A stretch of DNA of 64,000 nt, from NCBI RefSeq assembly GCF_000179235.2, contig NZ_CP039373.1, forward strand, positions 1,767,860-1,831,859, written 5' to 3'. The notes below the pieces were generated by a model. The model saw only the letters and a list, made by a program, of their open reading frames with translations, was not told the origin of the DNA and did not search any database. This document shows positions 23,430 to 29,808 of the stretch, one piece after another (position 1 is the stretch's first letter; each line of letters opens with the position of its first letter). This DNA comes from Synechococcus sp. CB0101 (GTDB taxonomy: Bacteria > Cyanobacteriota > Cyanobacteriia > PCC-6307 > Cyanobiaceae). The position numbers and the translations under genes were made by a program.

Positions 23430-23650
23430 CGGCGCAACAGCACGCGTGGATCCCGCAGCGGGCCGAGCGGCCGTAAGCGACCTGGTTGTCGTTGAGGCGG
23501 CTGCGCTGGCCGGGGCAGCGGAAGCAGCTGAGCCCAGGGCTCCCCATATTTCGTGAGGACGAATCGTTCACCGGCGTGAGCGCGATCCATCAGCTCCGCC
23601 AGGCCTTGCCGCGCGGCATGGGCGTTGATGCGCTGGGCTGGGGTGTTCAT
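23426..23650 (-). CDS. Phd/YefM-type antitoxin
   Basis: A 74-residue antitoxin that would bind the operon's operator through its N-terminal half and neutralise the PIN toxin with its C-terminal tail. The Phd/YefM core is RINAHAARQGLAELMDRAHA followed by GERFVLTKYGEPWAQLLPL. The tail from about residue 46 is unusually rich in proline and arginine and is probably disordered until toxin-bound. The ATG at 23650 is preceded by GGTGTT-like tandem repeats (seen on the plus strand). A long inverted repeat 28-73 bp upstream is a likely operator. A longer reading to 24121 is antisense to the Nudix gene and is rejected. Confidence 0.88.
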   Translation of the reverse strand: MNTPAQRINAHAARQGLAELMDRAHAGERFVLTKYGEPWAQLLPLPRPAQPPQRQPGRLRPLGPLRDPRVLLRR

Positions 23651-23677
23651 GGTGTTTGGTGTTGGTGTTGGCGGGTG

Positions 23678-23723
23678 TCCATGGGTGGGCCCACCGTCTG
23701 GGAGATGTGGTCCCACCCATGGA
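23678..23723. promoter_or_regulatory. 17-bp inverted repeat upstream of the toxin-antitoxin pair (candidate operator)
   Basis: The arms TCCATGGGTGGGCCCAC (23678-23694) and GTGGTCCCACCCATGGA (23707-23723) are reverse complements except at one position, with a 12-base spacer. They lie 28-73 bp upstream of the antitoxin ATG and over 120 bp from the Nudix start. Type II antitoxins usually repress through palindromes in this position. The absence of a T-run argues against a terminator. Confidence 0.6.
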
Positions 23724-23846
23724 GAGCGATGGCTGACGCCATGGCTTCTGCCACTCGCCGTTAACGGCAGTGTTCCCAGCACTGCCACGCCGCTGCCCAG
23801 CCGCCCCTGCGAAGCTGGCGGGCAACACCGCATCGCCGCTGCTGCC

Positions 23847-24410
23847 ATGGCGCCCCTGCCCGCTCCGGAACCCGCGCGCCATCTGGAGACCACCGCCAGC
23901 CTCGATGCTCGCAAGCTGCGTTTTGAGATCAACCGCGTGCAGCTGCCCATGGGCGTGGAGGGCAGCTTTGGCGTGATCAAGCACCCCGGCGCCTCCCTGG
24001 CCGTGCCGGTGCTCGCCGATGGCCGGGTGGTGGTGCTGCGCCAATACCGCTTTGCGGTGGCCACGCGCTTGCTGGAGTTCCCCGCCGGCACCCTGGATCC
24101 GGGCGAAACACCCCTCTCCACGATGCAGCGGGAACTGCAGGAAGAAGCCGGCTACAGCGCCACCCGCTGGGATGCGCTCGGGGCGATGCTGCCCTGCCCC
24201 GGCTATTCCGATGAGGTGATTCACCTCTTCCTGGCCCGCGATCTCACGGAGCTGAGCGATCGCCCTGCCGGCGACGACGACGAAGACCTCGAGGTGGTGT
24301 TGATGACGCCGGCTGAGCTCGATGCCGCCATCGCCAGCGGCGATGAATATCTCGATGGCAAGAGCGTTACCGCCTGGTTCCGGGCCAAGCAGCTGCTCGA
24401 GCTGGCATGA
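23847..24410 (+). CDS. Nudix hydrolase, ADP-ribose pyrophosphatase-like
   Basis: A 187-residue Nudix enzyme probably cleaving ADP-ribose or a similar nucleoside-diphosphate sugar. The Nudix box is complete: GTLDPGETPLSTMQRELQEE followed by AGY, fitting G-x5-E-x7-REL-x-EE-x-G. The upstream context (VLADGRVVVLRQYRFAVATRL then LEFPAGTLD) is typical of the ADP-ribose pyrophosphatase subgroup. The ATG at 23847 starts MAPLPAPEPARHLET; longer frames extend into the antitoxin operator region. Its stop overlaps the ATG of the photolyase gene (ATGA). Confidence 0.9.
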   Translation: MAPLPAPEPARHLETTASLDARKLRFEINRVQLPMGVEGSFGVIKHPGASLAVPVLADGRVVVLRQYRFAVATRLLEFPAGTLDPGETPLSTMQRELQEEAGYSATRWDALGAMLPCPGYSDEVIHLFLARDLTELSDRPAGDDDEDLEVVLMTPAELDAAIASGDEYLDGKSVTAWFRAKQLLELA

Positions 24411-25939
24411 GCGCGGAACGCTGGCTGTTCTGGCATCGGCGCGACCTGCGCCTCGCCGACAACCTGGGCTTGGCCACCGCCGCTGCCGCCACTCCCGCGG
24501 TGACCGGCGTGTTTGTGCTCGATCCAGCCATCCTCGGCGCTCCGGATATGGCGCCGGCGCGGGTGTGGTTCCTGCTCGAGAGCCTGAGGGAGCTGCAGCA
24601 GAGCTGGCGCGAGGCCGGCAGCCGACTGTTCGTGCTCGAAGGGGATCCGGAGCAGGTGCTGCCCCAGTTGGCGGAAGCCTTAGCGGCGCCGGTTGTGGCC
24701 TGGAACCGGGATGTGGAGCCCTACGGCCGTGCCCGTGATCGGCGCGTGGCGGCGGCGTTGCAGGCCGCCGGCCGCAAGGTGCTCGTGGATTGGGATCAGC
24801 TGCTGGTGGCGCCGGAGGCGCTGAAAACCGGCGGCGGCGATCCCTATCGCGTCTATGGCCCCTTCCTGCGCAACTGGCGCGGCCAGGTGGAGCGCAAGGC
24901 AGCGGCGGGTTCCGCTCTCAGCGGTGGCGTGGAGCCCGTGGCAGCGCCGGCTGGCCTGGTGGATCTGGATCCAGAGGCCTTGCCGGAACCGCGCTCAGCG
25001 CTGTGGGCGCAGCTGCCGCTGCGCGACAGCCTCCCCACGCTGGAGGAGCTAAGCCAAGCGTTTGACGGGGGTGACTTGTGCCCATGCCGGCCTGGAGAGG
25101 CCGCCGCTTTGGTGCAACTGCAGGCCTTCTGTGATGGCGGTGGTGCATCCAGCAGCCGCATTCCGTTGTTCGCCTACGAGCCCGGCCGCAACATGCCGGG
25201 TGAGGCCGGCACCTCAGGGTTGAGTGCGGCGCTCAAGTTCGGCACCCTGAGCCCGCGCCAGGCCTGGGCCGCGGCGCAGCAAGCCCGCCAGGTGGCGGAA
25301 GCCTTGGGCGGCGCTGAAGAAGCCATCGCCTCGATCGGAGTGTGGGAGCAGGAACTGGCCTGGCGCGAGTTTTATCAACAGGCGCTGTTCCATTTCCCTG
25401 AGTTGGCGGAGGGGCCCTACCGGCCCCAGTGGCGGCAGTTCCCCTGGGACAACCACCAGGGCCATTACGAAGCCTGGTGCGAGGGCCTCACGGGCATGCC
25501 GATCATCGATGCAGCCATGCGCCAGCTCAACGAGAGCGGTTGGATGCACAATCGTTGCCGCATGATCGTGGCCTCCTATCTGGTGAAGGATCTGATCTGC
25601 GACTGGCGCTGGGGCGAGACCGCCTTCATGCAGCGTCTGGTGGATGGGGATCTAGCTGCCAACAACGGCGGCTGGCAGTGGAGCGCCAGCAGTGGCATGG
25701 ACCCGAAGCCGCTGCGCATCTTCAACCCCGCCACCCAGGCCAGCAAGTTTGATCCCACGGGCGCCTACATCCGCCATTGGCTGCCAGAGCTGCGCCATGT
25801 GAACACCAAAGACCTGCTCAGCGGCGAGATCGCACCGATGGAGCGCCGCGGCTATCCAGCCCAGGTGGTGAGCCACAAGAAGCAGCAGGCGCGCTTTAAG
25901 GCGCTCTACGCCTCCTTGCCGAAACCGGGCGCCGCTTAG
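24407..25939 (+). CDS. phrA: Deoxyribodipyrimidine photolyase
   Basis: A class I FAD photolyase (510 residues) that uses light to repair cyclobutane pyrimidine dimers. The N-terminal alpha/beta antenna domain starts LFWHRRDLRLADNLGLATAA. The catalytic FAD domain includes WEQELAWREFYQQALFHFP, GLTGMPIIDAAMRQLNESGW, MHNRCRMIVASYLVKDLICD and DGDLAANNGGWQWSASSGMD, with the Trp residues of the electron-transfer chain. Length is normal. It begins inside the Nudix stop codon, and its own stop overlaps the convergent aminotransferase gene by 4 bp. Confidence 0.95.
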   Translation: MSAERWLFWHRRDLRLADNLGLATAAAATPAVTGVFVLDPAILGAPDMAPARVWFLLESLRELQQSWREAGSRLFVLEGDPEQVLPQLAEALAAPVVAWNRDVEPYGRARDRRVAAALQAAGRKVLVDWDQLLVAPEALKTGGGDPYRVYGPFLRNWRGQVERKAAAGSALSGGVEPVAAPAGLVDLDPEALPEPRSALWAQLPLRDSLPTLEELSQAFDGGDLCPCRPGEAAALVQLQAFCDGGGASSSRIPLFAYEPGRNMPGEAGTSGLSAALKFGTLSPRQAWAAAQQARQVAEALGGAEEAIASIGVWEQELAWREFYQQALFHFPELAEGPYRPQWRQFPWDNHQGHYEAWCEGLTGMPIIDAAMRQLNESGWMHNRCRMIVASYLVKDLICDWRWGETAFMQRLVDGDLAANNGGWQWSASSGMDPKPLRIFNPATQASKFDPTGAYIRHWLPELRHVNTKDLLSGEIAPMERRGYPAQVVSHKKQQARFKALYASLPKPGAA

Positions 25940-28395: not shown

Positions 28396-28869
28396 CTACT
28401 GCTGCGGGCTCCAGTCGGCCCAGACCTCCCGTTCGGCGCGGCGCCAATAGCGGCTGAAGCGCCCCAGATCCACCCGGTCTTCTAGCGCCACAAAGGGCCG
28501 GGGCTCCAGCACCTGCACCGGGAGCTCCTGCTCCAGGGCTGCGCAGATCGCCGCCACCCGAGGGTCGGTGCCAGCGCTGGTGACGATGCCGTCGGCGCCG
28601 TGGGCCCGTGCGAAGGCGAGCACCTCGGTGGCCACATCGCCCTTGCGCAGGCTCACCGGCAGCTCCAGCAGGCACTCGTAGAGGAAGCCGATGCGCTTGA
28701 GGCTCACCGGTTGAGCTGCCGGCGCGGCGGGGTCGCCGGTGGTGGGGCTGCGGCCCGCCAGGAGTTCTGTGTCGAACACGAATACCGCTGGCCGGTCGGG
28801 GTGGGCCTGCAGGGCGGGATTGGAGGGGCCCAGGGCTTCGCCGTGAATCCAGAGGATGGGGTTCTGCAT
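28396..28869 (-). CDS. Photolyase-like N-terminal (Rossmann) domain protein
   Basis: A 157-residue protein that matches only the alpha/beta antenna-domain part of DNA photolyases: PILWIHGEALGPSNPALQAH, VFVFDTEL, RIGFLYECLLELPVSLRKGD and EVLAFARAHGADGIVTSAGT. No FAD domain is attached. It lies 6 bp after the gene for the FAD domain on the same strand, so the two halves of a photolyase-like protein are encoded as adjacent genes in reversed order. It may form a heterodimer with its neighbour; this is inference. The TGA is only 13 bp from the convergent lipoprotein stop. Confidence 0.78.
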   Translation of the reverse strand: MQNPILWIHGEALGPSNPALQAHPDRPAVFVFDTELLAGRSPTTGDPAAPAAQPVSLKRIGFLYECLLELPVSLRKGDVATEVLAFARAHGADGIVTSAGTDPRVAAICAALEQELPVQVLEPRPFVALEDRVDLGRFSRYWRRAEREVWADWSPQQ

Positions 28870-28875
28870 CGGGGT

Positions 28876-29808
28876 TTATCGGCGACGGCTGGGGCGGCTC
28901 AGGGCGGCGTTGCCACCGGAGGGCCGCGGGTTGCTGCGTTGGTGGTTGTTGCTCTCCACCGCGCGCACGCTCGGCATTGCTTTGAACAGCTCGGCCTCCA
29001 GCTGCTCGTAGCTGGCATCGAAGGGGCAGCCCTGCTCGCTCAGGGGACAGCGGCGGCAGTAGCTGCCATGGCTGTAGCGCTCGAGGTTGGAGCGATTGAA
29101 GAAGTAGGGCTTGTGGCTGAAGCTGCTGGCCACCCACTGCCAGCTGAGGTTGTTGCTGGCGGGGTCGCCATCGAGCAGGTGGCGCAGAAACCATTGGGCG
29201 CCGGCCTGCCAGCGGATGCGGCGCCAGTGCACCAGATAGGCCGCCAGCCACATGCGGGCGTGGTTGTGCAGCCAGCCCGTGCTGTGGAGCTCGGTGATGA
29301 AGCCATCCATGCAGGCCAGCCCGGTGCGGCCTTCGGCGATGTCGCCGGGGAGCTCAGGGCTGTAAGCGCCGGGATGGTGGCCGGTTTTGAGCTCTTCTTG
29401 ATCGCGCCAGATCCCATGGCCCAGCTGATGCCAGAGGCGCTGCCAGTAGTCGCGCCAGCCGAGCTCATTGATCAGCTTTTCGCCGTCCGTGCGGGAGCGC
29501 AGCTTCGCGAACACGGCATCGCGCACCTCCGCCAGGCTCAGTGCCCCTTGGCGGATGTAGGGCGAAAGGCGGGTCACCGGGCCATCGAGGAAGTTGCGCC
29601 CCTTGGCGTAGCGGGCCGGCTGGATGCGGCTCAGCAGTTGCTCGGCCTGGTGGCGGCCGCCCCGAAAGGGGCTGAGGCTGCCCTCGGCTCCTGGGAAGAG
29701 GCGTTGCAGCTCGGCTGCAAGCGCCTGGCGGCTCTCGAACTGGCGCGGCAGCTCCCCTGGCTGCTCGGGCCAGCTGAGCGGTGCGCCGCTAAGGGAATCG
29801 GTGGCCAC
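28876..29808 (-). CDS. FAD-binding-domain photolyase/cryptochrome-like protein without antenna domain
   Basis: A 310-residue protein resembling the C-terminal catalytic domain of photolyases: AYSPELPGDIAEGRTGLACM, HSTGWLHNHARMWLAAYLVH, LDGDPASNNLSWQWVASSFS and KPYFFNRSNLERYS. The FAD-pocket residues and the Asn-Asn around the flavin are present. Four cysteines sit at about residues 166, 251, 254 and 261 (in GLACM, YCRRCPLSEQGCPF), a pattern that could coordinate metal or an Fe-S cluster. The GTG at 29808 is chosen; an ATG at 29898 overlapping the fabI ATG is possible. The partner gene for the Rossmann domain follows by 6 bp. Substrate (DNA repair or signalling) is unknown. Confidence 0.8.
   Translation of the reverse strand: MATDSLSGAPLSWPEQPGELPRQFESRQALAAELQRLFPGAEGSLSPFRGGRHQAEQLLSRIQPARYAKGRNFLDGPVTRLSPYIRQGALSLAEVRDAVFAKLRSRTDGEKLINELGWRDYWQRLWHQLGHGIWRDQEELKTGHHPGAYSPELPGDIAEGRTGLACMDGFITELHSTGWLHNHARMWLAAYLVHWRRIRWQAGAQWFLRHLLDGDPASNNLSWQWVASSFSHKPYFFNRSNLERYSHGSYCRRCPLSEQGCPFDASYEQLEAELFKAMPSVRAVESNNHQRSNPRPSGGNAALSRPSRRR

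Follow-up and report, generated by a model that had tools for sequence, protein, structure and literature searches.

Gene Organization of the Locus

The window, a 64,000-nucleotide stretch of the Synechococcus sp. CB0101 genome, carries two adjacent minus-strand genes that together resemble a photolyase with its domains in reversed order. The first (28876..29808) has a GTG start and encodes a 310-aa FAD/catalytic protein. The second (28396..28869) has an ATG start and encodes a 157-aa alpha/beta antenna-like protein. The two genes correspond to Phr4/Phr5, which Haney et al. (2022; PMC9426592) described from picocyanobacteria as a "reversed" photolyase. A literature search found no paper on Phr4/Phr5 later than 2022. 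The preliminary description of the locus, a FAD-only gene followed by an antenna-like gene, is confirmed by a PF03441 match in Phr4, by PF00875 matches in relatives of Phr5, and by the predicted fold of the latter. The 6-bp gap that it reported is also correct, as the junction (28870..28878, minus strand) consists of a TAA stop and the spacer ACCCCG. Across Cyanobacteriota, both genes have counterparts of 45-95% identity, a degree of conservation far beyond chance. A search for a promoter or terminator at the pair found none.

A full-length photolyase, likewise recognized in the preliminary description, lies on the plus strand (24407..25939). This 510-aa protein contains PF00875 and PF03441, is nearest to the 8-HDF-type class I model (1e-195), and represents the phr3 type. 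In Synechococcus RS9916, phr3 is likewise found near phr4/phr5 (PMC9426592). A NUDIX hydrolase-like ORF (23625-24410) overlaps the start of the photolyase gene by 4 nt, which resembles a nudix-photolyase operon of Prochlorococcus MED4 mentioned in PMC9649867. The complement of the genome matches that described by Haney et al., with a Phr1-like gene (L173), a PhrB-type Phr2 with four cysteines (L174), Phr3, and Phr4/5.

The FAD-Domain Protein Phr4

In a Pfam profile search, the sole domain match of Phr4 is PF03441 (E = 1.9e-24), and the protein lacks an N-terminal alpha/beta domain. An orthologue in a same-genus genome is 93% identical, and a GTG or TTG start is kept in relatives (L073-L079). 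In a tree of FAD domains, Phr4 lies among picocyanobacterial sequences, beside those of Vulcanococcus and the same genus, and it groups with short photolyase-like (SPL)/NewPHL proteins. Rooting this tree on class I photolyase proved to be a long-branch artefact, and its deep order was therefore left unused.

The residues of the FAD and CPD pockets are conserved. W118, H181, N182, R185, W200, D213, D215, N219, W223, and W225 are present in 104/104 aligned Phr4 sequences, and E115 is kept in 98/104. Four cysteines are nearly as constant. C166 (GLACMD; codon at 29311..29313, minus strand) is Cys in 102/104 sequences, and the clustered C251, C254, and C261 (CRRC...GC; codons within 29026..29058, minus strand) are conserved in 101-102/104. 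The clustered motif corresponds, in the alignment, to the Fe-S cysteines of L174, the PhrB-type protein from the same genome. This pattern suggests that the four cysteines of Phr4 likely hold an Fe-S cluster of the [4Fe-4S] type.

Variants of these motifs occur in distant relatives. Two acidobacterial proteins (L182/L183, genomes G553 and G526) have DGN at the FAD site in place of the near-universal DGD. In genome G308, a tandem Phr4-Phr5 pair (L098, 1178-2419) combines a Phr4 lacking all four cysteines with a Phr5 that is about 25% identical; judged by its residues, it is an Fe-S-free version of the two-gene enzyme. Phage matches to Phr4 are photolyase-type proteins of 28-32% identity, mostly unannotated, and no Phr5 copy was confirmed on viral contigs.

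The Antenna-Like Protein Phr5

Taken alone, Phr5 of the window has a PF00875 match that falls short of the cut-off (E = 0.0099). The domain is found in 11 of 13 close Phr5 relatives (best E = 2e-4), and over roughly its first 103 residues a Phr5 profile is colinear with the class I antenna domain of the protein encoded at 24407-25939 (hhalign E = 8e-6). An AlphaFold2 model of Phr5 (pLDDT 85, pTM 0.75) has its best fold matches, tied at Z scores of 11.4-11.8, in the antenna domains of CryB, PhrB, and the T. thermophilus photolyase. Universal stress protein (Usp) folds rank next, at Z 9-10. The assignment of Phr5 to the photolyase/cryptochrome antenna domains is thus weak from one sequence and becomes firm once its relatives and the predicted fold are considered.

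Arg59 of Phr5 is invariant (105/105 sequences) and presumably aligns with the arginine that contacts 8-HDF in class I enzymes. In those enzymes, an Arg forms the 8-HDF salt bridge (PMC9178010). The genome encodes CofG- and CofH-like proteins whose scores fall slightly under the curated cut-offs (203 vs. 213 bits and 351 vs. 374). It is plausible from these sequence features that Phr5 carries 8-HDF. E. coli makes no 8-HDF (PMC9178010); if Phr5 does carry this pigment, its absence from E. coli could explain the weak effect of light on phr4/phr5 in that host.

One Chain or Two

In the window, phr4 and phr5 share a reading frame because TAA plus 6 nt makes 9 nt, and one in-frame stop parts them, a detail absent from the preliminary description. 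Genome G045 has the same arrangement. A Shine-Dalgarno sequence was looked for at the phr5 start of this window and none was found. Haney et al. suggested a frameshift for the 7-bp spacer of their strains (PMC9426592). A programmed frameshift or stop-codon read-through would join the two products into a single Phr6-like protein, a reading favored by the in-frame arrangement in these two genomes and by the existence of natural phr4-phr5 fusions. Comparison of 44 unique picocyanobacterial junctions argues strongly against it. With one odd exception, gaps lie between -7 and +30; three stop codons are used, and frames 2, 0, and 1 occur 22, 12, and 10 times. Since spacer, stop codon, and frame all vary, even among close relatives, a conserved recoding signal cannot exist. 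A Shine-Dalgarno-like motif precedes phr5 in 13 of the 44 junctions and is good in several (e.g., TAAGCAGGAG...ATG), and in 22 genomes the two genes are not linked at all. A single recoded chain is therefore extremely improbable. Specifically, a conserved frameshift or 7-bp spacer is ruled out by the differing frames and gaps, and in-frame read-through in this genome would be possible by position alone, frame 0 (12/44) being at about the share expected by chance. Phr4 and Phr5 would instead be translated separately, probably in a coupled manner, with the Phr5 start 6 nt past the Phr4 stop. In this lineage, separate genes are found more often than any other arrangement, and a "split" pair is therefore not necessarily the product of a single gene that broke.

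Co-occurrence, Linkage, and Fusion

Among 386 cyanobacterial genomes surveyed (Phr4 threshold E ≤ 1e-45), Phr4 is found in 82, Phr5 in 83, and both in 81 (Fisher p = 4e-80, a value that ignores shared ancestry). The exceptions comprise a contig edge (G046), a Phr5 remnant without Phr4 (L102 in G428), and a single-chain NewPHL-like protein (G126). Linkage is far more variable. The genes are in tandem in 55 of the 81 genomes with both, 0.9-1.9 kb apart in 4, and unlinked in 22, where they lie either on one contig at distances of 26 kb to 4.9 Mb (12 genomes) or on different contigs (10 genomes). The FAD-domain tree implies 13 or more switches of the pair between the tandem, unlinked, and fused states. 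In two genomes (L130 and L117; G122 and G174), 1.6-1.8 kb of repeat-rich sequence lies between phr4 and phr5, and such spacers may show how tandem pairs separate in Nostocaceae-like genomes. In genome G351, the whole pair is present a second time in truncated form (L100).

The association extends to two further phyla. Among 199 Acidobacteriota genomes, all four with Phr5 also have Phr4, and the genes are far apart in three. Three further acidobacterial genomes have a Phr4 match (E ≤ 1e-40) without Phr5. Two of these matches (L188, L190) are single-chain NewPHL-type proteins without the four cysteines, and the third lies within a 416-aa frame. In Deinococcus, the pair is plasmid-borne (L194 and L193/L195). 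It is fused in the two species examined and split, with a 4-nt overlap, on a plasmid of Deinococcus sp. QL22. Natural fusions also occur in Cyanobium-like genomes, again in the order Phr4 then Phr5. As read from these sequences, same-order fusions arose separately at least twice, in picocyanobacteria and in Deinococcus.

Genes that are inherited together without being linked, and that have fused more than once, are a classic sign of partners in one complex, and cooperation of the two proteins in trans is the reading that best fits the sequence data. The preliminary description took the tight spacing of the genes as a sign of joint function. Spacing turns out not to be the key evidence, as co-occurrence holds without linkage. 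It also regarded unlinked homologs as grounds for rejecting a partnership. Unlinked homologs do exist, in 22 cyanobacterial and three acidobacterial genomes, yet the two genes are always present together there, which supports a joint function rather than undermining it.

Alternatively, Phr5 may not be a subunit of Phr4, and both proteins may merely serve the same stress, with Phr5 acting, for example, as a Usp-like nucleotide binder. The Usp scores of the Phr5 model and the many genomes with unlinked genes are compatible with this proposal. So is the poor interface model: an AlphaFold2 prediction of a phr4-phr5 read-through fusion, made as a stand-in for the complex, had low confidence (pLDDT 60, pTM 0.39), showed no interpretable interface, and was set aside. 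Such independence would not account for the near-perfect co-occurrence of the genes or for their fusion, in one and the same order, on two or more separate occasions. In addition, the homology of Phr5 is specific to PF00875 and includes the presumed 8-HDF arginine position. Two independent stress proteins are thus very unlikely.

Lesion Specificity

Haney et al. proposed a heterodimer or a programmed frameshift for Phr4/Phr5, plus (6-4) activity, a prediction that rested mainly on the cysteines and on effects of UV-C stronger than those of UV-B (PMC9426592). The four cysteines do occur as in PhrB and CryB, the phenotype is biased toward UV-C, and the antenna domains of PhrB and CryB are among the top structural matches of Phr5. 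The lesion-site motif H181-N182-H-A-R-M186 (codons at 29251..29268, minus strand) counts against this prediction. N182 (104/104 Phr4 sequences) and M186 (97/104) stand at the positions of PhrB His366 and Leu370, and both are the CPD counterparts of these residues. His366 is essential for (6-4) repair by PhrB, and substitution with the CPD counterparts gave zero repair for His366Asn and reduced repair for Leu370Met (PMC4619345). The PhrB-type protein L174, which already provides the genome with a protein bearing the His-His pair and four cysteines, has His and Leu at these positions. Moreover, an Fe-S cluster is no marker of (6-4) activity, given that CPD repair is ascribed to the class of Fe-S SPL proteins (Xu et al., 2021, as reported in PMC9649867). 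One SPL gene, SephrC, is present in S. elongatus (PMC9178010). NewPHLs, which are the closest relatives built as one chain and have the HN..RM motif in common with Phr4, repair CPDs in single strands (PMC13274461).

Overall, a (6-4) photolyase is unlikely, and the published prediction looks wrong when judged by these residues. The Asn/Met pocket, the description of Fe-S SPLs as CPD enzymes, and the single-strand CPD repair by NewPHLs make CPD repair, perhaps of single-stranded DNA, the better prediction. The residue evidence offers a sharp, checkable correction to the (6-4) assignment.

Proposed Function

Phr4 and Phr5 are probably the subunits of one light-driven, two-chain photolyase composed of a CPD-type catalytic protein and an antenna-type protein. 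This reading draws on domain content, residues of FAD, Fe-S, and CPD type, near-strict co-occurrence, and fusions, all taken from sequence, and on the predicted fold of Phr5. From these we infer physical binding, the pigment, specificity for CPDs (perhaps in single-stranded DNA), and light dependence. Phr4 would be the catalytic chain, with FAD, probably a [4Fe-4S] cluster on the four cysteines, and a CPD lesion pocket. Phr5, a separate protein with an alpha/beta domain of antenna type, would bind to Phr4 in trans, sit over the FAD site, and pass light energy to it. Its role may be to hold a pigment that harvests light, 8-HDF for example, or only to shield the flavin. The reduced FAD would then split the CPD, and the Fe-S cluster could serve as a structural or redox contact, as in PhrB.

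Experimental data bear on this proposal from both sides. A phr4 insertion mutant is UV-C sensitive (Haney et al., 2022; PMC9426592). Counting against light-dependent repair, light made no significant difference to how well phr4/phr5 protect E. coli from UV-C (PMC9426592). This result, along with the presence of a full-length photolyase in the same genome, would also suit a cryptochrome-like photoreceptor or another signalling protein in place of a repair enzyme. Such a role is hardly probable, as Phr4 retains the residues of the lesion pocket and the FAD site and the proximal Trp residues (W118, N182, W200, W223, and W225, 104/104), the phr4 mutant has a UV-C phenotype, and Phr4 clusters with NewPHL-type photolyases. 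The preliminary description had suggested either a heterodimeric photoreceptor or a heterodimeric repair enzyme. Of these, two-subunit repair is best supported by the sequences, and the photoreceptor is disfavored by the intact FAD and CPD-lesion residues and the UV-C sensitivity.

A more far-reaching and quite unlikely scenario is that separate genes were the original state. A catalytic Fe-S flavoprotein and a free antenna or cover protein would later have been fused independently in either order, giving rise to the NewPHL type (catalytic domain first) and the canonical photolyases (antenna first), with the cyanobacterial pair as a living remnant. The literature searched contains no report that phr4 and phr5 are co-inherited without linkage or occur in two further phyla, no rejection of the frameshift, and no mention of a CPD-type pocket.

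Comparison With Known Systems

The closest described relatives are Phr4/Phr5 and the fused Phr6 of marine Synechococcus and Cyanobium (PMC9426592), with which the present pair has in common two genes, the reversed order, four cysteines, and proximity to phr3. The strains of Haney et al. have a 7-bp G-C spacer with a frameshift, whereas the spacer here is 6 bp and in frame; this feature varies family-wide and is not defining. Their prediction of (6-4) activity differs from the CPD specificity that the lesion-site residues argue for here.

SPL proteins such as SephrC of S. elongatus (PMC9178010) resemble Phr4 in that no alpha/beta domain precedes the FAD domain. Some also have four cysteines, and the sequence of SPLs is CPD-type, as is that of Phr4 (E115, W118, N182, M186, and W225). 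SPLs have been put forward as the ancestors of photolyases and cryptochromes for want of an antenna domain. In published descriptions they have no alpha/beta domain, whereas here a separate protein supplies one. If the cyanobacterial, acidobacterial, and deinococcal members always use a separately encoded antenna, these proteins do have an antenna after all, and its function could be tested by omitting one subunit.

NewPHLs, reportedly described by Emmerich et al. in 2020 and said to include Prochlorococcus Phr7, have the catalytic domain first, a second domain at the C-terminus, the HN..RM motif, and a FAD domain 30-40% identical to that of Phr4. They are single chains, a state found for Phr4/Phr5 only in fused relatives, and in those read here the four cysteines of Phr4 are missing. 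In hhalign, Phr5 matches the NewPHL-type C-termini of L188/L190 (probability 90, E = 1.7e-6) but gains no support for a match to the C-terminal domain of Prochlorococcus Phr7.

The FeS-BCP or prokaryotic (6-4) photolyases (PhrB, CryB, and SePhrB) have a cysteine pattern, LxCxD ... CxxC ... CPF, similar to that of Phr4, and an antenna domain that resembles Phr5 in fold. Unlike the two-gene enzyme, they are single chains with a PF04244 antenna first and the catalytic His366, where Phr4 has Asn. The Pfam search found no PF04244 (DPRP) match in Phr4 or Phr5, and the PF04244 gene of this genome lies elsewhere. Finally, the neighboring class I CPD photolyase (24407-25939) has a FAD domain 38% identical to Phr4 over 131 aa, common lesion residues, and a homologous antenna. 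Unlike Phr4/Phr5, it is one chain with the antenna first and no Fe-S cysteines.
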